This document shows, piece after piece, positions 5,535-19,803 of a stretch of 22,298 nucleotides of DNA. Made by a program: the position numbers and the translations under genes. The DNA is from a virus. How positions within the stretch are numbered: the stretch's first letter is position 1; every line of letters begins with the position of its first letter. A model generated the notes under the pieces. That model ran no database searches and was not told the DNA's origin. It worked only from the letters and a program-made list of their open reading frames with translations. The stretch lies in the IMG/VR virus record IMGVR_UViG_3300031997_000619, positions 1 through 22,298 of that record; one strand, written 5' to 3'.

Positions 5535-5938
5535 GCCTTCGTAGCCAACGACGGGGTCTCTCCGCGGACCCCGTCTGGCAACGACTGACTTCTTGGGAGC
5601 GTCCCCTTTGGCTCATCGCGGCGGTCGCAAACGGGACAGCAGATATCATCTGCCCCCGTTGCGGCCGTGCTGAGAAGTTCAGTCGCTACTGCACGTTGTG
5701 CTACTACCCGATCCAGCTCTCGGACATTCGAATCCACACTCCAGGCGACACTCACTCGTGTGTGTTCAAACGGGTGCCCCCTGACGCAGTGAACGGGGGC
5801 TGGGGTGACAGTAGCGTCTCCAAGTGGACTCCAGAGGAGGGAATCGTTGACAGCTCCGTCGAACCGGCAATTCGAATCGCTCAAGCCCAAGCCGCTCGAG
5901 ACGAGGTCGGGCTTGGAGACGTTCTCGACGCCTCGTAG
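5531..5938 (+). CDS. Zinc-finger protein of unknown function
   Basis: A 135-residue protein starting at GTG 5531, overlapping the preceding stop. Residues 41-58 hold CPRCGRAEKFSRYCTLC, a clear four-cysteine zinc-binding knuckle. After it come a Gly/Asp-rich linker and an Ala/Gln-rich helix. The last 92 bp overlap the 5' end of queF in another frame, much more than other overlaps in the window. No family is recognised. Confidence 0.6.
   Translation: MSLRSQRRGLSADPVWQRLTSWERPLWLIAAVANGTADIICPRCGRAEKFSRYCTLCYYPIQLSDIRIHTPGDTHSCVFKRVPPDAVNGGWGDSSVSKWTPEEGIVDSSVEPAIRIAQAQAARDEVGLGDVLDAS
5833..5840 (+). promoter_or_regulatory. Ribosome-binding site deciding a TTG start for queF
   Basis: AGAGGAGG lies 6 nt before TTG 5847, in frame with queF. 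An alternative GTG at 5805 would add 14 residues unlike QueF and lacks an equally good site, so TTG 5847 is preferred. Confidence 0.65.
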
Positions 5939-6320
5939 CGTCGGTTACGTCAAGATGTGCTCGGACGAGGTCACGAGTCTCTGCCCGATCACCAACCAGC
6001 CAGACTTCGAGACGATCACGATCGAGTATGCTCCTCGGGGGCTGTGCATCGAGAGCAAGAGCCTCAAGCTGTTCTTCCAGTCGCTTCGCGACGAGGGAGC
6101 GTTCATCGAGGACCTCAGTTCGATGATCGCTCACCTCGTCGCCAACACGATCGATCCCGCGTGGGTTCGGGTGATCGCCCACCAGAAGCCTCGTGGCGGC
6201 ATCGCGATCGATGCGGTCACTCATCTCGGTCGCGTCATCAAGGACAACGACGAGATCGGCTACGAAGCGTGGGACTACACGCCCAACTTCGGCTTCCAAG
6301 AGCCTTGGAGGGCTGAGTGA
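5847..6320 (+). CDS. queF: NADPH-dependent preQ0 reductase (QueF-like)
   Basis: A 157-residue protein of the short, unimodular QueF type (tunnelling fold), which reduces 7-cyano-7-deazaguanine (preQ0) to 7-aminomethyl-7-deazaguanine (preQ1). Visible signatures: SLCPITNQPDF with the nucleophile Cys46 and catalytic Asp53, the family motif ESKSLKLF at 69-76, and Glu88. In canonical QueF this Glu is preceded by His (FHED); here the motif is FIED with Ile87. PRGGI near 115 is also family-typical. A preQ1 product would supply a primary amine for the acylation cassette downstream. GTGA overlap couples it to queD. Confidence 0.88.
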   Translation: MTAPSNRQFESLKPKPLETRSGLETFSTPRSVGYVKMCSDEVTSLCPITNQPDFETITIEYAPRGLCIESKSLKLFFQSLRDEGAFIEDLSSMIAHLVANTIDPAWVRVIAHQKPRGGIAIDAVTHLGRVIKDNDEIGYEAWDYTPNFGFQEPWRAE

Positions 6321-6682
6321 ACACAGCGACCGTCACCAAGCAGTTTCAGTTCCACGCAGCTCATCAGCTGCCCAACCACGCCGGGAAGTGTCGCAATCTT
6401 CACGGCCACACCTACCAGGTCGACGTGAGCGTCACCGGCGAGATTCGCACGTGCGACGGCTCGACCGACGAAGGGATGGTGATCGACTTCGATCGCCTCA
6501 AGGAAGCTTGGGTCCCGATCGACGAAGCGCTCGACCACAAGTACCTCAACGACGTCCTCGAGACACCGACGGCGGAGCGTATCGCGCTCTGGATTCTCGA
6601 TCGACTCCTCGAGGGAGGGCTCGAGCAAGTCGGGGTCTGCGTCTGGGAAACGCAGACGTCGTGTGCGGAGGTGTGGGGGTGA
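6317..6682 (+). CDS. queD: 6-carboxy-5,6,7,8-tetrahydropterin synthase
   Basis: A 121-residue protein that converts the FolE product, dihydroneopterin triphosphate, to 6-carboxytetrahydropterin. The zinc-binding histidines are visible in FQFHAAHQL (His16) and LHGHTYQ (His29, His31), and the catalytic Cys25 in GKCRNLHGH. IDFDRLK and LDHKYLND are further family motifs. Length is normal for bacterial QueD. The start GTG 6317 overlaps the queF stop, and the queD stop overlaps the queE start. Confidence 0.93.
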   Translation: MNTATVTKQFQFHAAHQLPNHAGKCRNLHGHTYQVDVSVTGEIRTCDGSTDEGMVIDFDRLKEAWVPIDEALDHKYLNDVLETPTAERIALWILDRLLEGGLEQVGVCVWETQTSCAEVWG

Positions 6683-7416
6683 GCGGCTTCCCGATCGTCG
6701 AGCTGTTCGGGCCCACCCTGCAGGGCGAGGGTCAGGACATCGGCATGCCCTGCTACTTCATTCGGTTCGGCGGCTGCGACTTTCGATGCGGTCAGCGTGA
6801 CGACGGGACCTGGCGATCGGACGGGTGGGTGTGTGATTCGCTCCACGCCGTTCTCCCGGAGGAGGTTCGTCTCGCCCCCAAACTGAGCGTTGACGAGATC
6901 ATCAACAGTCTCGTCGAACTAACGCCCGGTCCAGACTGGGTCGTCTTCTCCGGGGGCAACCCCCTGCTACACGAGTTGGGAGACCTCGTCGAAGCTCTTC
7001 ACGACAATCACTACAAGGTCGCTGTCGAAACGCAAGGGACGATCTGGAAGGAGTGGCTCAACGATGTCGACCTGGTGACAGTGTCACCGAAGCCGCCGTC
7101 GACGTTCCAGAAGTACGGCGCCGGGACGATCGATACCTTCATGAAGCGTCTCAACGGACCTCGAGTGGTCGTCAAGGTCGTCATCTGGGACGAAGACGAC
7201 ATCAAGTGGGCGGAGTGGTTCCGCGACTGGGTGCCGGGTGTTCCCTTCTACCTGAGCGTATGCAACGACTGGCACAAGCCTGACGGCTCCGACGAGCTTC
7301 TCGGTCGTCTCAAGTGGATTCACGAGACGATCGTTGCTCGAGGGGCCAAGCTGGGAGACGTCCCGATTCTGCCGCAGCTACACGTGCTGCTCTGGGGGAA
7401 CTCCCGTGGTCGATAA
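6679..7416 (+). CDS. queE: 7-carboxy-7-deazaguanine synthase (radical SAM)
   Basis: A 245-residue protein whose frame continues upstream, but GTG 6679 overlaps the queD stop and starts the family motif PIVELFGPTLQGEG. It contracts 6-carboxytetrahydropterin to 7-carboxy-7-deazaguanine using SAM and a [4Fe-4S] cluster. The cluster cysteines read GGCDFRC and then, after 14 residues, VCDSLHAV (CX3CX14C). The usual radical-SAM motif is CX3CX2C, so a 12-residue insertion separates the second and third cysteines. The FSGGNPLLH glycine-rich SAM motif, VETQGT and SPKPPS are intact. It is probably active. Confidence 0.92.
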   Translation: MSGFPIVELFGPTLQGEGQDIGMPCYFIRFGGCDFRCGQRDDGTWRSDGWVCDSLHAVLPEEVRLAPKLSVDEIINSLVELTPGPDWVVFSGGNPLLHELGDLVEALHDNHYKVAVETQGTIWKEWLNDVDLVTVSPKPPSTFQKYGAGTIDTFMKRLNGPRVVVKVVIWDEDDIKWAEWFRDWVPGVPFYLSVCNDWHKPDGSDELLGRLKWIHETIVARGAKLGDVPILPQLHVLLWGNSRGR

Positions 7417-8023
7417 GACCGAAGCCTTCGTCGACGCTGTCATCGCCATTGACGATGCTCTTCTGCTGCAGTCGCTGGAAGGCGACATCGCTTGTATGCT
7501 CAAGGACCTCGGCGTCTCGATGACGGATGAGAACTTCGCTGAGACGCCTCGTCGTCTAGCGTCGTACCTCCGAGAGCACTTCCTGCAGGATGGCGAGGAG
7601 GAAGAGCAGGTCCAGAAGTTCGCTGCAGCGACCTTCCCGTCCGACTACAAGGGCATGGTGATCGTCGACGACATCGAAGCTCACGGCATGTGTCCACATC
7701 ACCTTCTCCCAGTTCGCTACGTGATCTCGATCGCGTACTTACCAGCAGAGCGTGTAGTCGGGCTGAGCAAGCTTCCTCGGATCGCCGAAGTGATCGCTCG
7801 TCAGCCGCTCCTTCAGGAGACGGTCACGACGAAGATCGCGGACACGATCGAGCGTCTCTTGGCTACGCCCCACGTCGCCGTAGTCGTCACGGGGATTCAC
7901 TCATGCATGGCCGTTCGTGGCGTCCGGCGACCTACGCCGGTCACGACCTCAGCAGTCCGTGGGGACTTCTTGCACGACCCGACGACGAAGACCGAGTACC
8001 TCTCACTGAGGGATCGCCCATGA
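7406..8023 (+). CDS. folE: GTP cyclohydrolase I
   Basis: A 205-residue protein from GTG 7406, overlapping the end of queE by 11 bp. It opens the GTP ring to give dihydroneopterin triphosphate, the first step of 7-deazaguanine synthesis. Zinc ligands are visible: Cys96 and His99 in GMCPHHLLP, and Cys167 in IHSCMAVRGV. The VVGLSKLPRI and TTKIADTI segments are conserved FolE motifs. A phage copy next to queDEC most likely boosts precursor supply beyond host folate needs. Confidence 0.93.
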   Translation: MVDKTEAFVDAVIAIDDALLLQSLEGDIACMLKDLGVSMTDENFAETPRRLASYLREHFLQDGEEEEQVQKFAAATFPSDYKGMVIVDDIEAHGMCPHHLLPVRYVISIAYLPAERVVGLSKLPRIAEVIARQPLLQETVTTKIADTIERLLATPHVAVVVTGIHSCMAVRGVRRPTPVTTSAVRGDFLHDPTTKTEYLSLRDRP

Positions 8024-8301
8024 CCAGCCCGGCTGACTTCTCGTCGTACCTTCTTCACGCAACAGCGTTGATGCGGGATCGAATGTTCGATCCCAAGAAC
8101 ATGGCTAAGCCGTCGATCCACGAGAAGTCGTTCGAGACCGTCAACACCCGTCTCGATCGACAAGTCTCGAAGCTCCGCATTGCGATCGGCGACGACGATC
8201 TCGAAGGAGCGTGGAGTGCTGCAGCTGACGTAGCCAACTACGCCTGGATGCTCGTTGTCAAGCTCGAAGACAAGCGAGCAGAAGAGGCAGAGCGTCGATG
8301 A
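8020..8301 (+). CDS. Small helical protein, MazG/DUF1599-like
   Basis: A 93-residue protein from ATG 8020 (ATGA overlap with folE). Its second half, with RLDRQVSKLRIAIGDDDL and then WSAAADVANYAWML, resembles the last helices of MazG-like and DUF1599 proteins, where an (A/E)-A-D-V-A-N-Y-A motif is typical. The acidic EExxE metal motif of a catalytic MazG is not evident, so activity is uncertain. A second protein of the same general type is encoded at 12180. It may process or bind modified nucleotides; this is inferred from context. Confidence 0.45.
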   Translation: MTSPADFSSYLLHATALMRDRMFDPKNMAKPSIHEKSFETVNTRLDRQVSKLRIAIGDDDLEGAWSAAADVANYAWMLVVKLEDKRAEEAERR

Positions 8302-8993
8302 GTACGATCCGACTCGAAGACACGACCCGAGGCCCGCTGACATCCTCGGGGACCAAGCACCGCGTGTTCGAAGGCCCGTTCAGCTACTATCGGACGTTCG
8401 GCGTCGGCGTCGATATCTTCGTGTTCGATACACCGAGCGTTGACGCCGACTGCACCCTCGACGAGTACGATCGATGGCTCGACGAACAGTACGAGCACAT
8501 CGAAGGACTTCGAGCGAAGGACGCCGTGCTGATCCTGCTGCCGACCGACCGCAAGGGTCACCCGTGGAGCAAGTCGGTCGCTACCGCCTCCTCTGCGATG
8601 TCCCACGGGTGGCAGCTGTTCCGCCACTTCGTGTGGCTCAAGCAGGAAGCGGACTTCCACCGATCGCAGTACGCGTTCCAGGACGTCTGGACGTTTCGCA
8701 AGGGCAGTCGGGCAACGAACGGCGACGCCGAAGCTCGCTACAAGGACGTCGTTCGCATCCTGATGCCTCACGACGCCGACAGCCACGTCGGAGCGTTGCC
8801 ATCGATCGTCATCGAGTACTTCCTCGCCCTGTGGGCGAAGGCGGGCGACCTCGTTATGGACCCGTTCGCCGGCCGAGGGAGCGTTATGGAAGCAGCACAC
8901 ACTCTCGGGCTGGGGTCGATCTCGTGCGAGCTCGACCCCGAACGAGCGGAGCATCTCCGCCAGATGTCCAGAGCGTTGGAGGGCAACGAGTGA
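8298..8993 (+). CDS. DNA methyltransferase-like protein with altered catalytic motif
   Basis: A 231-residue protein with motifs in beta-class amino-methyltransferase order. Motif IV comes first: VDIFVFDTPS, with DTPS at 44-47 where N6A/N4C methyltransferases carry DPPY or SPPY. The SAM-binding motif I is C-terminal: LVMDPFAGRGS (Asp188) and then SCELDPERAEHL. The SAM site looks intact, while the catalytic tetrapeptide lacks the second Pro and the aromatic residue. It may be inactive or may act on a different exocyclic or side-chain amine, for instance on preQ1. It lies between folE and queC with ATGA and GTGA overlaps, so it belongs to the modification operon. Confidence 0.75.
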   Translation: MSTIRLEDTTRGPLTSSGTKHRVFEGPFSYYRTFGVGVDIFVFDTPSVDADCTLDEYDRWLDEQYEHIEGLRAKDAVLILLPTDRKGHPWSKSVATASSAMSHGWQLFRHFVWLKQEADFHRSQYAFQDVWTFRKGSRATNGDAEARYKDVVRILMPHDADSHVGALPSIVIEYFLALWAKAGDLVMDPFAGRGSVMEAAHTLGLGSISCELDPERAEHLRQMSRALEGNE

Positions 8994-9739
8994 AAGCAGT
9001 CTCGCTTCTGTCGGGAGGTCTCGACAGCACTACCCTCGCGTACGAGCTTCGTCACGAGGGCTACGACCTCGTCTTGCTGAGCTTCGACTACGGGCAGCGT
9101 CACAAGAAGGAGCTAGCTGTCGCTTCGGACATCGCCAAGCTTCTCGGCGCTGAGCATCACATCGTCTCGCTCGGGGTCTATGCGAACGACTTCGAGTTTC
9201 AGGCCTCGTTGCCGCTAGCATCCGTCCTCGGGCCTAGCGTCCTTGTCGATCAGACCACGGCAGTTCCCGACGGACACTACGCCGACGAGAACATGAAGCA
9301 GACCGTCGTCCCGAATCGGAACGCGATCATGCTTAGCATCGCGTACGGCATCGCAATGGCAAAGGGAGCCGACGTCGTAGCGTTCGGGGCTCACGCCGGC
9401 GATCACACCATCTACCCGGACTGCCGACCAGGGTTCGTGGAGCGGTTGGGGGACACGTTCCGAGAAGGAGCTGCCTGGTCGCTCGCCGAGATGGATAGCG
9501 TCCCTCGACTCATCGGGCCGTATCTGTTCATGACGAAGACGGATATCGCCAAGCAGGCGATCGAGCTGGGAGTGCCGGTCGAGCTCACGTGGAGCTGTTA
9601 CAAGGGGGGTGACGTTCAGTGCGGGACGTGCGGGACGTGCTACGAGCGTCGTGAGGCGTTCGTCCTCGCCGGCGTTCTAGACCCAACGGAGTACCTCGAC
9701 AGCACGACCGAGTTCGAGGACCCGACGAAACCGCACTAG
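8990..9739 (+). CDS. queC: 7-cyano-7-deazaguanine (preQ0) synthase
   Basis: A 249-residue protein from GTG 8990, overlapping the stop of the methyltransferase-like gene. It converts 7-carboxy-7-deazaguanine to preQ0 with ATP and ammonia. The PP-loop SGGLDS (8-13), SFDYGQRH, VVPNRN and FGAHAGDH motifs are present. The zinc site is Cys203, Cys211, Cys214 and Cys217 (QCGTCGTC region). Length is usual. The last His codon and TAG stop lie inside copy 2 of the 112-nt element. Confidence 0.94.
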   Translation: MKAVSLLSGGLDSTTLAYELRHEGYDLVLLSFDYGQRHKKELAVASDIAKLLGAEHHIVSLGVYANDFEFQASLPLASVLGPSVLVDQTTAVPDGHYADENMKQTVVPNRNAIMLSIAYGIAMAKGADVVAFGAHAGDHTIYPDCRPGFVERLGDTFREGAAWSLAEMDSVPRLIGPYLFMTKTDIAKQAIELGVPVELTWSCYKGGDVQCGTCGTCYERREAFVLAGVLDPTEYLDSTTEFEDPTKPH

Positions 9740-9865: not shown

Positions 9866-10633
9866 GTGATCACTGTGAAACTGCCGCGAAAGGGGGTGAC
9901 GCCCGAGGCCGAAGTCGAGCGTATCTGCGACATCATGCAACACGCGCCGGAGCTCGGCTTCGTCTACAAGGCAGTCGTTCTCGACGCCATCGCAGGGAAC
10001 GATGTCCGCGGGACCCTGTGGGCCGTCTACGACAATGACGAGCCTGTAGGCGTCGCGATGATCGGTTCGCGAAGGCCGTACGACCACGTCTATCGCACAG
10101 GCGATGTCACCGTCGTCCCGGAGCGTCGTCGTCAACGATTCGGCACTTGTCTCTACACCGCAACCGCGATGCAGGGCATCCTCGAAGGTCGAAGGGAGGT
10201 CGAGGAGACCGTCATCGCGAGTCTCAGCCCGTGGATGGTCTACGAAGCTCTTGAGCGTGACCGGGGGACGGAGACGCGATTCGGGACAGACGGGCCCCCG
10301 AACTTCGACGGTCAACTTCGGATGGGGTCGGTCGACGGTCACGGCTTTCTGCGGTCGCTCAACTACAAGCACTACGGCACCCTCCCGATGCGTACCGGGG
10401 GCTTTCGCGACATTCAGCTGTGGTGCCACTCACCGTTCGACATCGACGACTACCTCGAGCGTCTCCCGGAGGACGACGTCGTGATCGAGCTTGCGGATCG
10501 GGAGCACGACTGGAAGGTGTACGATCGCAACATCGAGAACTACAAGAAGCACGACATGACCTTGGCAACGAGGGCAGAACGACTGAAGACGTGGGTGCTG
10601 GAGGGAGCTGATGGCCTCGTTCGAATTGTCTGA
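9866..10633 (+). CDS. GNAT-family acyltransferase
   Basis: A 255-residue protein from GTG 9866, with AAGGAG 9 nt upstream. Residues 50-100 form the GNAT core: WAVYDNDEPVGVAMIG, then the acyl-CoA/pantetheine-binding motif A at 81-99 (VTVVPERRRQ followed by RFG), then a long helix. About 150 residues follow that are not part of a minimal GNAT, rich in Trp, Tyr and acidic residues, which could recognise a large substrate such as DNA. The following genes encode a carrier protein and its adenylating enzyme, so the donor may be an aminoacyl-carrier thioester rather than acyl-CoA. Substrate is inferred from context only. Confidence 0.75.
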   Translation: MITVKLPRKGVTPEAEVERICDIMQHAPELGFVYKAVVLDAIAGNDVRGTLWAVYDNDEPVGVAMIGSRRPYDHVYRTGDVTVVPERRRQRFGTCLYTATAMQGILEGRREVEETVIASLSPWMVYEALERDRGTETRFGTDGPPNFDGQLRMGSVDGHGFLRSLNYKHYGTLPMRTGGFRDIQLWCHSPFDIDDYLERLPEDDVVIELADREHDWKVYDRNIENYKKHDMTLATRAERLKTWVLEGADGLVRIV

Positions 10634-10880
10634 GTTCGAAGCGTATCGCACCGTTCTAGTCTGGGTGATCGCGACTCTGAAGGGCGAGCTCGACATCGAT
10701 GCGTCCCCCGACACCGACCTCCAGAACGGGGAGATCGAGCTCGACAGTCTAGACAAGACGACTTTGCTCGTTGCAGCGGAGGAGGGATGGGCAATCGATC
10801 TAGGGACCGAGCCCATCGAGCGGGAAGTCTGGCAGACTCCAAGCACGATCGCGAGGATGATCGCCAGTGCTCTTGCTTGA
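10611..10880 (+). CDS. Acyl/peptidyl carrier protein (DltC-like)
   Basis: An 89-residue acidic helical protein from ATG 10611, with GAGGGAG just upstream. ELDSLDKTTLLV places Ser46 in the DSL motif that is modified with 4'-phosphopantetheine. The size and acidic helix II fit DltC and ACP proteins. It overlaps the GNAT gene by 23 bp and the DltA-like gene by 14 bp, so the three are probably made together. No phosphopantetheinyl transferase is visible, so a host enzyme would be needed to activate it. Confidence 0.82.
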   Translation: MASFELSEFEAYRTVLVWVIATLKGELDIDASPDTDLQNGEIELDSLDKTTLLVAAEEGWAIDLGTEPIEREVWQTPSTIARMIASALA

Positions 10881-12183
10881 TCGCATTGCGTACTGGGCGA
10901 TGGTCGCGCCGGGACGTCGGGCAATCGTCTCCCCCGACGAGCATCTCTCGTACGGCGAGCTCTGGCAACAGTCTGCGGAGCGTAGTCAGCAGCTCCACGA
11001 CCCGTTCTTAGCTGTCATCGGGCACAAGAGCCCCGACATGGTCGTCAGCTTCATTGCTGCGTTGATCGCCGACATCCCGTTTGTCCCGATCGACTCCGAG
11101 CTGACCCCGATCGCTCGTCAGGAGCGTATCCTGCACACGTTCGAAGAGCATCTCGCGCCGCCGGGAACAGCCTACATCATCTTCACGAGTGGCTCGACCG
11201 GCGACCCTAAGGGGGTGATGGTGCCTCGAGAAGCGCTCGATGCGTTCATCGACTCGACGATCACGGTTCACGATCTCCCGTCAGCTGAACGATGGCTCAA
11301 CGTCGCTCCGTGGAGCTTCGATCTCTCGGTCTTGGACACGTGGGTGGGTCTGGCAACCGGGGGAACGGTCGTGACCGTCTCTCGATCGCTCCTAGACAAC
11401 CCCGGAGCGTTGCAGCAGTTCCTCGAGCTCAATCCCGTCGACAACTGGGTGAGTACCCCGACGTTCGCTGACTACTGCCTCTCGCTCGCGAGGTTCACTT
11501 CCACCGAGATCCAACCTCCTCGTCGATTCTTCTTCTGCGGCGAGGTGCTTCGACCTTCGACAGTGCGAGCGTTGTACGAACGCTTCCCCGATTCCCTCGT
11601 CTACAACATGTACGGCCCGACCGAAGCGTGTTGTGCGGTCACGTCGACCCTCGTCACCCCGAAGATGGCGAGCAGCAATCTCCCGCTATCGTGTGGCAAG
11701 CCGTACCCCACGATCGACATCGTCATTGATCACGGGGACGACACTAGACCGTACGACCCCGGGGAGGTTATGCTTATGGGACCTCAGGTCGCGTGGGGAT
11801 ACCTCGGCACACAGAGTGACAAGTTTGCTGTACAGAATGGCCGACGAAGCTATCGAACAGGCGACCTGGGGTACATTGCGCACGGCGAACTCCAAGTCTG
11901 CGGGAGGATCGATCGACAAGTGAAGGTGCACGGCTACAGAGTGGAGCTGGCAGAGATCGAGCGTACTATCCGAGGGGCGGGGGCTTACGATGCAGCCGTC
12001 GTTCAGATGCCCGACGGTTCGTTGACGGCGTTCGTTCGACAAGTGACCGGCTCGAAGATTCGCGATCGACTTCGTCACGAACTGCCGTCGTACATGATCC
12101 CGAAGCGGATCGTCCGGCTCGACGACTTCCCTCGAACAGCGAATGGCAAGGTCGACTTGCTAGCGTTGAAGAAGATGGGATGA
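10867..12183 (+). CDS. dltA: DltA-like amino-acid adenylating enzyme (carrier-protein ligase)
   Basis: A 438-residue ANL-superfamily enzyme, shorter than typical DltA (about 500). All core motifs are visible: FTSGSTGDPKG (A3, to residue 116), WSFDLSVLDTW (A4, Asp152), NMYGPTEA (A5, near 247), YRTGDLG (A7), GRIDRQVKVHGYRVELAEIE (A8) and ANGKVD (A10, Lys428). It resembles DltA more than generic NRPS domains: APWSFDLSV, FFFCGEVL and TYGP/MYGPTEA..AVTS contexts are shared. Cys224 in FFCGEVL matches the DltA cysteine linked to D-alanine selectivity, and Asp152 matches the residue binding the substrate amine. It should adenylate a small amino acid and load the adjacent carrier protein. DltB and DltD are absent, arguing against teichoic-acid alanylation. 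Confidence 0.85.
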   Translation: MLLLDRIAYWAMVAPGRRAIVSPDEHLSYGELWQQSAERSQQLHDPFLAVIGHKSPDMVVSFIAALIADIPFVPIDSELTPIARQERILHTFEEHLAPPGTAYIIFTSGSTGDPKGVMVPREALDAFIDSTITVHDLPSAERWLNVAPWSFDLSVLDTWVGLATGGTVVTVSRSLLDNPGALQQFLELNPVDNWVSTPTFADYCLSLARFTSTEIQPPRRFFFCGEVLRPSTVRALYERFPDSLVYNMYGPTEACCAVTSTLVTPKMASSNLPLSCGKPYPTIDIVIDHGDDTRPYDPGEVMLMGPQVAWGYLGTQSDKFAVQNGRRSYRTGDLGYIAHGELQVCGRIDRQVKVHGYRVELAEIERTIRGAGAYDAAVVQMPDGSLTAFVRQVTGSKIRDRLRHELPSYMIPKRIVRLDDFPRTANGKVDLLALKKMG

Positions 12184-12530
12184 AGACCCCGATGACCCGA
12201 CCCGACGTACAGGGCAACCCCCGCTATCTCGAGCTGCTCGACTACATGCGGGAGCTCCACATCGCCAAGTCCGCAGGCTACTCCGGCGAGGGGCCTGACT
12301 CGTGGGCGAACTTCCGCGAAGCAGAGGGATGGGGCGTCAGCACGATCGAAGGCTGTGCGGTGCGTCTCGGCGACAAGTACAAACGAGCCCAGAACGTCTT
12401 TCGCAACTCGCAGCTCGATATGGTGGGGGAAGCTCTTCCCGCCACCCTGGTCGACCTGGCATCTTATGCGCTGATCCTACTGTGCCTGTACGAGGAACGA
12501 ACGGGTACGAAGCTCGTGGAGGTCAAGTGA
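12180..12530 (+). CDS. DUF1599-like (MazG-related) helical protein
   Basis: A 116-residue protein from ATG 12180 (ATGA overlap); a second in-frame ATG lies at 12192. The pattern SWANFREAEGWGVSTIEGC, then RLGDKYKRAQN, then LPATLVDLASYALIL follows DUF1599, an all-alpha family related to MazG and often found near phage nucleotide- or DNA-modification genes. Its biochemical activity is not settled to my knowledge. It sits between the DltA-like gene and dpdA, overlapping both, which ties it to DNA modification. Confidence 0.65.
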   Translation: MKTPMTRPDVQGNPRYLELLDYMRELHIAKSAGYSGEGPDSWANFREAEGWGVSTIEGCAVRLGDKYKRAQNVFRNSQLDMVGEALPATLVDLASYALILLCLYEERTGTKLVEVK

Positions 12531-13330
12531 AGACAGCGTTGATCCCGCCCGCTGCACATCTCGACGAGTTCGGTAGGGGCGACTTCCACCTTCTCCTCGG
12601 GCACGTCGACAGCTCCGAGTATCGAGCCCACTACACCGGGCAGGGGGCTCAGGGCGCGTTCATGGTGCTTGACAACGGAGCCCACGAGAACGTTCGGGGG
12701 ATGAACTCCCGAGCTCTGCTGCTTCGCGCTGCCGAGTTGGGAGCGTCTGAGGTTGTTGCCCCCGACGTTCTGTTTCGCTCGCAGTTGACGGTCAGTCGAA
12801 CCACGAAAGCCCTCGAGCGTTGGGCGGGAGTCGACCGAGAGCTGTTCGAGAGTCTCGGGCTGTCGGTCATGCTAGTTCCGCAGGGCGAAGACGCCTGGGC
12901 TTGGCGAACATGCCTTCAGTCGATTCTGTGGACATACGAGCGTCTCGCCGACAAGCACCCGGGCCTGTTCAAGGAGCCGACGATCGGCATCAGCAAGGAC
13001 TACATCCTGTGGCCCGGTGGTCTCTCGAAGCTCCTCGAGCAGGCGGTCATCCCGCTCGGTCACCCGGTCCATCTTCTCGGCTGGGCTAACGATCTCTGGA
13101 CTCTCGGGGAGATCGCTCACCGCTGGCCGCAGATTCGATCGACCGACTCCGCCCGGCCGTTCACGTACGCCTTGAGGGGGATCGCTCTAGACCCGACCGA
13201 TGAGGTTCCGACTTACGAGCGTCGTCAAGGCGACTACTTCGGGCTCGAGCTCACTCCTGACCAGATCGAGCTCGCCTGGCACAACGTCGGCGTGTTCAGG
13301 GAACTAGCGAATGATCATCGCGACGACTGA
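12527..13330 (+). CDS. dpdA: DpdA-like 7-deazaguanine-DNA transglycosylase
   Basis: A 267-residue protein of the TGT/DpdA superfamily, which exchanges guanine in DNA for a 7-deazaguanine base. Expected landmarks are in order: VLDNGAHE (Asp49, the position of DSGGFQ in TGT), VVAPDVL (Asp80), LVPQG (Gln119), GISKD, VHLLGWAND near 181-189, and RSTDSARPF with Asp207 as candidate nucleophile. It is far shorter than tRNA enzymes and lacks the four-cysteine zinc site near the C-terminus, as in phage DpdA. The start GTG 12527 overlaps the upstream stop. Position immediately before the DNA polymerase fits incorporation around replication. Confidence 0.85.
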   Translation: MKTALIPPAAHLDEFGRGDFHLLLGHVDSSEYRAHYTGQGAQGAFMVLDNGAHENVRGMNSRALLLRAAELGASEVVAPDVLFRSQLTVSRTTKALERWAGVDRELFESLGLSVMLVPQGEDAWAWRTCLQSILWTYERLADKHPGLFKEPTIGISKDYILWPGGLSKLLEQAVIPLGHPVHLLGWANDLWTLGEIAHRWPQIRSTDSARPFTYALRGIALDPTDEVPTYERRQGDYFGLELTPDQIELAWHNVGVFRELANDHRDD

Positions 13331-16542: not shown

Positions 16543-19500
16543 CTACTTGATCTTGCCGCGGGTGTTGTTGCGGGGGACGGTCTTGCCGCTCGTGTGAGAA
16601 CTGCGGAGCGTCCCATCGACGTCATGTGTGCTGCTCACGCGACCCCGAGTCAGTCGACTCGTGAGTCGTCCGACGATCGCCCCGATGACTGGCTCGACGT
16701 ATCGCTGGGTGACGTGGGTGACGACTTCTGAGACTGTTCCCAAGGTGTCTGCAGTCGTCCGAGCCCACGCTTTGGGGCTTCGACCGACAGCCTCGGCTAG
16801 CGTAGCGAGGGTGTCAACAATGCTTCGAAGGATTGCTAGAGGCGCTCTGATGGCGGACTCTGTGACAGACGAGAGCGTATCTGCCGTAGTCCGTAGTGCT
16901 CCCTTGATTCGGATCGGGACTTCGGAGAGCCCGGAGATCGCGTCACCCACCAGGCGTCCGTAGTCGATGTGCCTCGTAAGAGCTTCGGTCATCGCATTCA
17001 GCGTATCGCCGACTGTTCGGACTCGAGCTGCGCTGGCCCGCGCAACCGCTTCTGTCAAGGACGAGAACGTATCGCCGACTGTACGGAACAGAATCTTGCC
17101 GCCGAGCACCGTCTCCGAGACGATCGATAGAGCATCCGATACGGTTCGAGCTACTGCAATGCCCCCACGAACGACTGCCTCGGTCAACGTCGGAAGAGTG
17201 TCGGCAAGCTCCCGGGCGTTCGTAACCCGGCGCGTCATGGCGTCAGACAACGAACTTAGTGCGTCCCCCGTGATGCGGAACAGAATCTTGCCGCCCTGTA
17301 CAGCTTCAGAGACTACCGACAGAGCGTCTTGGACCGTACGCGGGAGCCCAACGACCCGAGTGACCGACTCGGACATGCTGGACAGGGTGTCCGAGGCTGC
17401 ACGGGCACGAGCCCCCGCAGCCCTTGCTACCGTTTCAGCCAACGATCCGAGAGCGTCGACTGTAGTTCGGAATAGAATCTTACCGCCAACGACTCCCTCT
17501 GAAATCGTTGACAACGTGTCAGCAACTACCCGGGCTACTACGGTACCGCGTAGGGCGGACTCCGTGATGTTCGAGAGGGCGTCCGCTACTGTCCGACTCC
17601 GTACACTGAGTCGAACGACAGCTTCGGACAAGCTCGAAAGGGTGTCGGGGACGCCACGTCGCCAGAACCGAACGGTCGTAATCGACTCGACGATCGAGCT
17701 TAGAGCGTCTGCGACCGTGCGGAATCGAGCCCCGATACGGGCTGCCGCTTCGGTAAGGGCAGATAGGGAGTCGGCCGCTGTCCGACTTCCAGTAAAGGCA
17801 CGAGTCGTAGCGTCCGAGATTGCCGAGAGGGCGTCGCCGGCAGTTGCAAAGAAAGCACCGACGCCCGACTTGATGCCAACGACCGCTTCCGATAACGTCG
17901 AGAGAGTGTCACTAATCGTCCGAGCGACGTCGATGTGTCGAAGAGCGCTATCGGCTAGCGTTGACAGTACATCCCCTGCTGTCCGCACCTTCGCGGCAAC
18001 CGACCGGGCGAGACTATCTGCAACCGAACTGAGGGCATCGTTAGTCGAGCGGCCCTTCGCTGCAGCAGCGCGCGCTACGAACTCACTCGCGGTCGCTAGT
18101 GCGTCTCCAACCGCCCTGACCAGGGTCTTCCGGCCTAGTGCAGTCTCCGAGATTGCTGACAGGACATCCTGAACTGCACGAGTGATATCGATATGGCGAG
18201 TGATGGCTTCGGTCAACGTTGTCAGACTGTCACTGGCCGTTCGGACCTTAGAGGCGACAGATCGGACGACCGCTTCGCTCAGGGTCGAAAGAGTATCGTT
18301 GACTGTCCGTCCCGTTCCCTTGAGTCGAGAAGGGACTTCGCCGAGTGTTGACAGTGCATCTGCTACGGCACGTACGGGATCAACGTGTCGTCCGATGGCA
18401 TCGGCCACCGTTGCTACGGTATCGGCGGCGGTCTTGATGTGAGCAGTAACCCCGCCCTTGACCCCGACAACGGCTTCGGAGAGCCCGCCGCCAGCGGTCG
18501 TGTACTCGATCTCGATTGCGAGGGAGACGTAGTTGCAATCGAACTGACGGGCTGCGCCCGCGTAGGACACAATCGCGACATCAGGCGCAGCGGATGACAA
18601 TGCGGTCCCGCCCGAGATTGTCACCCAGTCGTTGCTTGGGTAGTCGCCGTCGTTGAACACGTCGGTCGCGCCAGCGCCAAGGACGAAGGTCCCGTCAATG
18701 ACGATCTTTCCGCAGTAACACCCCACGTCAATCGACACGACGGACCCGGTGAGTGGAGCAACGGTGCTGGTGCGGACTCGCGTGATCGTGGCACCGACGG
18801 GAACGCCCCAGTCCTCCCACGTCTCGGCACCGGCAGAGGGCGTTCTGATGCGCGCAAATCCGGCGTCGCTGGCGCCCTGATCCCAGCGGTGGTTGACCCC
18901 GCTATAGAGGGAGAACGCGCCACCCGTGTCGTCCGTAGCCCACCCGGCGTCGTTCGAGTAGAACGGCCACGTCTTTGTGACGGTCGCGGTACCCCCGCCG
19001 AAGGCGTCCGCTGCGGTGCGGAATCTCGCGGCAACCCGGGCGACTGCCTCCGACAGGGTGGAGATCGCGTCACCGGCGGTGCGCGGCATCCCCTTGACGC
19101 GGGTCGGAGCCTCGGAGAGGGTGGCAAGCGAGTCGGCGGTGGTCTGGGTGTAGTTGACCGCGACCCTTGGATAGATCGCGACCGTGTAGGCCCGCCACGC
19201 GAGGCTCTGGGCGGTGGTGAACGCTGCAGGATCAAGGACGGAGTTCGTGTAGGCGTACTGCGCGCTCGCCGTCTGGCAGTTGACGGTGACGGCACCCGAC
19301 GTACCCGTCGCCTTCTGGCGCAGGTTGGAGAACGAGGTCGGGGTGCCGCTGACCCACGTGTCGTCATCCGCTTCCTCACCCGCCTGCCCGAACGCTGTCA
19401 GCCAAAGGTAGTCCTTTGACCCGCCAGCGGGCGTCAGCGACCCGGCGTCAGGCGCGGTGCTGGTGCCGGTGGCGACGGTCGAGAACACCGGGGCCGTGGC

Positions 19501-19803
19501 CGAGTCGTGCGTCCCGGTCGTGATGTTGTACGCGATCCACGCGCTCTTGGTGGCGACCGCAGCCGTCACCACCACGCCGCCGCCCTCGGAGCCGTCCAGC
19601 ACCTTGGTGAAGATGTGGAACGTGGCGCTCGTGTTGGTCAGGTTGACGAACGAGGCACCGATGGTCAGCGTGCGCGCCGTGGCATCGTTGGCGAAGAAGA
19701 TGACGACCCGGTCACCCGTGGTCTGGGAGAACGTGACCGTGTGCGTGGTCGAGGACGAACCTGCACCCTCGACCGGGGTGCCCCGGACGGTCGGGCTTGC
19801 CAT
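16543..19803 (-). CDS. Large repetitive tail (fibre-like) protein
   Basis: A 1086-residue protein from ATG 19803, which overlaps the stop of a 27-codon ORF. Residues 1-210 form a beta-rich N-terminal domain of the kind seen in phage structural proteins. Then come about 30 copies of a 21-22 residue unit with consensus RTVADTLSTLSEAVxR, interrupted by a globular insertion of about 170 residues (18490-19000), and finally a basic tail (GKTVPRNNTRGKIK). Ser/Thr- and Ala-rich repeats of this form occur in actinobacteriophage tail proteins and probably build an elongated shaft. No ribosome site is seen, so translation may depend on the ATGA coupling. Confidence 0.75.
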   Translation of the reverse strand: MASPTVRGTPVEGAGSSSTTHTVTFSQTTGDRVVIFFANDATARTLTIGASFVNLTNTSATFHIFTKVLDGSEGGGVVVTAAVATKSAWIAYNITTGTHDSATAPVFSTVATGTSTAPDAGSLTPAGGSKDYLWLTAFGQAGEEADDDTWVSGTPTSFSNLRQKATGTSGAVTVNCQTASAQYAYTNSVLDPAAFTTAQSLAWRAYTVAIYPRVAVNYTQTTADSLATLSEAPTRVKGMPRTAGDAISTLSEAVARVAARFRTAADAFGGGTATVTKTWPFYSNDAGWATDDTGGAFSLYSGVNHRWDQGASDAGFARIRTPSAGAETWEDWGVPVGATITRVRTSTVAPLTGSVVSIDVGCYCGKIVIDGTFVLGAGATDVFNDGDYPSNDWVTISGGTALSSAAPDVAIVSYAGAARQFDCNYVSLAIEIEYTTAGGGLSEAVVGVKGGVTAHIKTAADTVATVADAIGRHVDPVRAVADALSTLGEVPSRLKGTGRTVNDTLSTLSEAVVRSVASKVRTASDSLTTLTEAITRHIDITRAVQDVLSAISETALGRKTLVRAVGDALATASEFVARAAAAKGRSTNDALSSVADSLARSVAAKVRTAGDVLSTLADSALRHIDVARTISDTLSTLSEAVVGIKSGVGAFFATAGDALSAISDATTRAFTGSRTAADSLSALTEAAARIGARFRTVADALSSIVESITTVRFWRRGVPDTLSSLSEAVVRLSVRSRTVADALSNITESALRGTVVARVVADTLSTISEGVVGGKILFRTTVDALGSLAETVARAAGARARAASDTLSSMSESVTRVVGLPRTVQDALSVVSEAVQGGKILFRITGDALSSLSDAMTRRVTNARELADTLPTLTEAVVRGGIAVARTVSDALSIVSETVLGGKILFRTVGDTFSSLTEAVARASAARVRTVGDTLNAMTEALTRHIDYGRLVGDAISGLSEVPIRIKGALRTTADTLSSVTESAIRAPLAILRSIVDTLATLAEAVGRSPKAWARTTADTLGTVSEVVTHVTQRYVEPVIGAIVGRLTSRLTRGRVSSTHDVDGTLRSSHTSGKTVPRNNTRGKIK
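16690..19155 (-). repeat. About 30 tandem coding repeats of 63-66 bp
   Basis: The repeats encode units such as RTVADALSSIVESITTVRFWR. Most are exactly 21 codons, several are 22, and one is 25. Positions 1 (R), 5 (D), 7 (L) and 12 (E) are the most constant. Individual copies are diverged at DNA level, while short tails (GGKILF, RHIDxx) recur in several non-adjacent units, indicating past shuffling or gene conversion. The DNA is coding and is not a CRISPR. Confidence 0.85.

Follow-up and report, generated by a model that had tools for sequence, protein, structure and literature searches.

Why should a phage carry, in the midst of its genes for DNA modification, an amino acid-activating ligase and a carrier protein of the kind that bacteria use on their cell wall? 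In bacteria, DltA and DltC act there, in the D-alanylation of teichoic acid. The question is raised by IMG/VR record IMGVR_UViG_3300031997_000619, a phage fragment of 22,298 bp which was analysed whole and is called the window below. Besides the DltA-type ligase and the DltC-type carrier, it codes for a GNAT-fold acyltransferase. The original prediction was that these three proteins together aminoacylate the amine of preQ1, a base made by the same operon.

The + strand of the window holds a block of replication and DNA-modification genes. It opens with genes for an SNF2 helicase, a PD-(D/E)XK nuclease, an AAA_24 and a DUF669 protein. Then come queF (5805..6320), for the 7-cyano-7-deazaguanine reductase that makes the preQ1 amine (PF14489, E=3e-20, above cut-off), queD (6317..6682), for 6-carboxytetrahydropterin synthase (PF01242, E=5e-33), queE (6676..7416), for the radical SAM 7-carboxy-7-deazaguanine synthase (a weak match to PF04055; its homologue in locus L094 is 43% identical), and folE (7334..8023), for GTP cyclohydrolase I (PF01227, E=8e-49). 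After folE, a small ORF and an N4/N6 methyltransferase-like gene precede queC (8990..9739; preQ0 synthase, PF06508, E=1e-56), which is followed by the genes for the GNAT (9866..10633, 255 aa), the carrier (10611..10880, 89 aa) and the ligase (10867..12183, 438 aa), the GNAT and the ligase having GTG starts. A small putative ORF overlapping the ligase stop (12180..12530; weak match to phrog_1485), a divergent dpdA (12530..13330), for a DNA-guanine transglycosylase, and a fusion of UDG with DNA polymerase A complete the block. All of these genes lie on the + strand, and the preQ0 set FolE, QueD, QueE and QueC is complete.

From the GNAT gene to dpdA, each gene overlaps the next, by 23, 14, 4 and 1 nt in order. 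The open frames and these overlaps confirm that an overlapping trio stands between queC and dpdA in an operon that also has queF. A mis-named folE can be ruled out as the source of 'queF', both genes being present. The codon use and GC content of the trio are those of phage genes; this codon use, together with a GNAT that is native to the phage group, speaks against a chimeric assembly. Between queC and dpdA, promoter and terminator signals do not rise above chance. The methyltransferase-like gene (8298-8993) has a counterpart in locus L062 (908-1651) with 47% identity. On the - strand, a 1,086-residue ORF (16543-19803) with many degenerate repeats and no Pfam match is probably a tail or fibre protein.

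Is there an amine to acylate? The QueF of the window retains the catalytic Cys and Asp (CPITNQPDF) and the NADPH motif ESKSLKL (sought with the pattern E(S/L)K(S/A)xK), and so, judged by its sequence, keeps the motif set of the dPreQ1-making type. It is homologous to the QueF of Dp-1, with the same Cys, Asp and ESKSLKL; dPreQ1 was found in virion DNA of Streptococcus phage Dp-1 and of Halovirus HVTV-1 (Hutinet 2019, PMC6884629). In the F-H-E-D stretch the Glu is kept and the His has become Ile, which we count against the proposal. At the position of this His, other phage QueFs (Funsized, Mufasa8) vary as well, so that it is no strict requirement in the phage family. In the DNA of this phage, some guanines are probably replaced by the amine-bearing preQ1. 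Near queF, several loci carry a gene for a Vut_1 (YhhQ-like) transporter, probably for preQ0/preQ1 uptake (L027:10375-11148, L035:3517-4155, L094:9028-9666, L047:6475-7188). Elsewhere, the 535-aa queE frame L081:1457-3064 has an intein-like insert just past the start of its radical-SAM cysteine motif.

The enzyme that would place the base in DNA could be recognized by its predicted fold. The dpdA product has no Pfam match, and its match to known TGTs is weak when sequence is used by itself (E=0.77). An AlphaFold model built from a 19-sequence alignment reached a pLDDT of 92, however, and the best 50 PDB matches returned by Foldseek are all TGTs, DpdA 7ui4 among them, so that we assign the TGT fold with confidence on the strength of this model. 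Asp48 and Asp206 are invariant. Homologues come from phage MA9V-3 and from about 20 queF phage loci. This makes a family of about 265 residues, for which there is no Pfam model (window 12530-13330 and some 20 loci, L013, L027, L045, L062, L094 and others); it occurs with UDG-polymerase A phages and in Chryseobacterium phage MA9V-3. Just upstream of dpdA, four loci have a gene for a CxxCxxCC protein, zinc- or iron-binding (L027:11595-12284, L035:4557-5249, L094:12407-13093, L047:10528-11262).

The identity of the first member of the trio rests on its relatives and on its fold. Against PF00583/PF13508 the GNAT of the window scores below the gathering cut-off, and all five members of its family match Pfam GNAT models. 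Its own model (pLDDT 70) retrieves GNAT N-acetyltransferases with Foldseek. The protein has a C-terminal extension of about 65 residues, and its motif A, QRFGTC, keeps a Gly where the relatives in L027 and L094 have Glu. For the ligase the matches are strong (PF00501, E=1e-50, and PF13193). The top sequence score goes to a linear gramicidin synthetase, yet DltA structures of the PDB match at E from about 1e-75 to 1e-52. Stretches of DltA-like signature are present (FDLSV, WVSTPTF, FFFCGEVL, YGPTE), and a tree that also took in 40 dltA genes and two NRPS domains puts the ligase within the DltA clade, split from the NRPS domains at 100/100; its branch is long (3.14), its exact place within DltA being unsure. 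The core motifs TSGSTGDPKG, GPTE and YRTGD and the catalytic Lys of NGK are intact. The window has neither a condensation domain nor a multidomain NRPS module, the trio consisting of single-domain proteins. The carrier had no match in a Pfam search. Its best PDB matches are DltC/Dcp, and a profile built from 76 DltC sequences, run against 7,581 viral ORFs, picked it out at E=2e-9, with no other match below 0.1; it has the LDSL phosphopantetheine serine and the signature EREVWQTP. The three assignments of the original prediction, GNAT, carrier protein and DltA-like ligase, are upheld.

What would the ligase activate? The residues with which DltA binds D-alanine, including the Cys that selects the enantiomer, have been described (PMC8972799). 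Asp152 and Leu153 are present in the protein of the window, as is the enantiomer-selecting Cys224, while a Met is replaced by Leu156, the equivalent of Val301 by Cys256, and a Thr by Met. Most of the pocket being kept, D-alanine is the first guess as substrate; another small amino acid is possible. The pocket changes, and the lack of some 50 residues ahead of the P-loop, are counted against the proposal.

The usual partners of this pair are missing. Profiles were built for DltB (MBOAT) and DltD, and neither matched anything in the record, hence the record lacks the standard route to teichoic acid D-alanylation. Beside the 80 cellular ligases closest to that of the window, by contrast, DltB is a neighbour in 75 and DltC in 52, with no credible GNAT partner in any.

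The relatives of the GNAT tell with what it usually travels. A scan of IMG/VR for QueF gave 80 loci, five of which hold a homologue of the window GNAT; the GNAT alignment, when searched against IMG/VR, found six contigs, these five and a new one. In all six (L062, L094 and the L027/28 and L035/36 group among them) the stop of the GNAT gene overlaps the start of queF. Four of the six belong to the L027/L035 group, which leaves about three independent lineages. Identity to the window GNAT is 47% in L062 and 28-29% in L027 and L094, and the order of the other genes varies from locus to locus; given this strong divergence, the adjacency to queF must be conserved. Genes for preQ0 and/or dpdA lie near by, and dpdA is present in each of the lineages. 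Read from sequence and gene order, this suggests that the GNAT family is tied to the preQ1 amine. Homologous cassettes occurring mostly in genomes without dpdA or queF had been named as evidence against the original prediction; for the GNAT the opposite is seen, all homologues found abutting queF. The expected co-occurrence with dpdA holds for the GNAT family in every lineage, but the full trio was seen in one record only. No AMP-binding ligase was found in the records with GNAT homologues, nor any match to the carrier in a search that had no positive control. Relatives without ligase and carrier make acylation from CoA the likely ancestral state. No bacterial genome was found with the GNAT patterns.

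These elements can be assembled into a scheme. FolE, QueD, QueE and QueC would make preQ0, which QueF would reduce to the aminomethyl base preQ1, and DpdA would swap guanine in the phage DNA for preQ1, or for preQ0 reduced later. By way of the adenylate, the ligase would activate a small amino acid (D-alanine is the likeliest) and pass it to the phosphopantetheine arm of the carrier; the holo form of the carrier would have to be made by a host transferase. From there the GNAT would transfer the aminoacyl group to the preQ1 amine, giving N-aminoacyl dPreQ1. By analogy with other late steps, the acceptor is more likely preQ1 in DNA than the free base, and the product might protect against nucleases. 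As for history, a CoA-dependent GNAT acylating (d)PreQ1 may have come first, the phage later gaining a captured DltA-DltC pair without DltB and DltD. We consider it somewhat more probable than its negation that the trio carries out such a carrier-protein-dependent N-aminoacylation of (d)PreQ1. The gene identities, an operon that holds both QueF and DpdA, and the independent link between GNAT and queF speak for this core of the original prediction; the complete cassette in a single record speaks against it.

Several other readings compete with this scheme. A minority of our credence, though a substantial one, goes to a GNAT that acylates (d)PreQ1 from an acyl-CoA such as acetyl-CoA, while ligase and carrier serve a separate purpose, for example another aminoacylated product. 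GNATs normally use CoA donors, as do the nearest folds, and the homologues that adjoin queF in records without ligase or carrier show that the enzyme need not take an aminoacyl group. Yet in the window it is away from queF, overlapping the carrier gene and grouped with the ligase pair, for which no other acyltransferase is seen, DltB being absent. The separation from queF is also counted against our own scheme. Rather unlikely, in our judgement, is a trio that aminoacylates a host envelope polymer, a tRNA or a small molecule, for instance in superinfection exclusion, its position in the operon being incidental. The cell-wall role of bacterial DltA and DltC and the dlt operons around the nearest cellular ligases speak for it; the absence of DltB and DltD, the tie of the GNAT family to queF and the overlaps that run into dpdA speak against it.

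That the ligase or the carrier has decayed, leaving plain or CoA-acylated dPreQ1 in the DNA, strikes us as improbable: the gap before the P-loop and the long branch might be read in this way, but the core motifs are intact, the frames open and the codon use phage-like. We hold it slightly more improbable still that the aminoacyl group goes onto another amine or another modified base, for example in connection with the N4/N6 methyltransferase-like gene. This gene is the second one upstream of the GNAT, and in L062 it stands beside the GNAT as well; the GNAT of L094 and L027, however, adjoins queF without this gene at its side, and hydroxymethyl-pyrimidine genes were not seen in the record.

How rare, then, is aminoacylation by carrier protein among viruses? 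Ligase and carrier, and with them the complete cassette, were seen in one viral record only, that of the window. Single-sequence scans of IMG/VR with the GNAT, the ligase and DpdA as queries gave no matches. DltA-like matches in 'phage' records, L180 set aside, are mostly unannotated, labelled Listeria, Staphylococcus or Enterococcus phage, and probably host sequence; L011 (one contig with L179) resembles a host dltA situated at the end of a prophage contig, and L012 is an NRPS.

Four known systems stand closest to the locus. Further substitution of the dPreQ1 amine has a precedent, in that N-formyl (DpdN) and N-methyl (DpdM) dPreQ1 are reported to be present in phage DNA in the 2023 work of Cui; there the groups are said to be formyl and methyl, not aminoacyl, and no carrier protein is known to take part. 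The Dlt system shares the ligase and carrier families and the Asp and Cys of the D-alanine pocket, whereas the window has a GNAT in place of DltB and DltD, in a DNA-modification operon. With Dp-1 and HVTV-1 the window shares the set FolE-QueD-QueE-QueC-QueF, and DpdA with Dp-1, but no acyltransferase, carrier or ligase is described there, and its own DpdA is of a divergent family (PMC6884629). An amino acid amide in phage DNA is known as 5-carboxymethylcytosine-glycine, where CmoY of the CmoX/CmoY system joins glycine to the base (PMC12783734). In that case, as in the scheme for the window, an amino acid is amide-linked to a DNA base after activation by ATP. But there an asparagine-synthetase-like ligase activates the carboxyl of the base and the amine comes from glycine; in the window the base would contribute the amine, and activation would fall to the amino acid. 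In a limited literature search, no route to modified DNA by way of a carrier protein or of DltA/DltC came to light.

If the scheme is right, a thioester on a carrier protein, familiar as chemistry in the making of cell walls and peptides, can serve to decorate phage DNA. This would widen the choice of groups attachable to DNA, and new modified nucleosides could be predicted by exact mass. In its fullest form the idea is tentative, and we would bet against it rather than for it: phage DNA would carry D-alanyl-dPreQ1, to which a GNAT and a captured pair of DltA and DltC would bring the D-alanine in the manner of teichoic acid D-alanylation. It would be the first nucleic acid modification of its type that depends on a carrier protein, and GNATs beside queF or dpdA in other phages would mark a wider N-acyl dPreQ1 group.

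The link of GNAT to queF provides, by itself, an uncharacterised set of candidate dPreQ1 N-acyltransferases. GNATs of two other families occur in eight additional loci of the 80, no farther than about 2.5 kb from queF or dpdA. Among 141 control ORFs more than 4 kb away in the same loci, each GNAT family accounts for at most one, and no GNAT family is found among those with at least two members. The comparison is suggestive rather than a formal test, several of the loci being near-duplicates. The second family (L044:4443-5096, L064:709-1161, L065:3579-4031 and L091:8246-9183, the last with two in tandem) stands near dpdA-like and queF genes or immediately upstream of them, and may comprise further dPreQ1 acyltransferases. 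The third, GNAT-like, is found upstream of queF in related phages (L019:8291-8827, L020:7670-8206, L022:6377-6913, L024:6606-7139).
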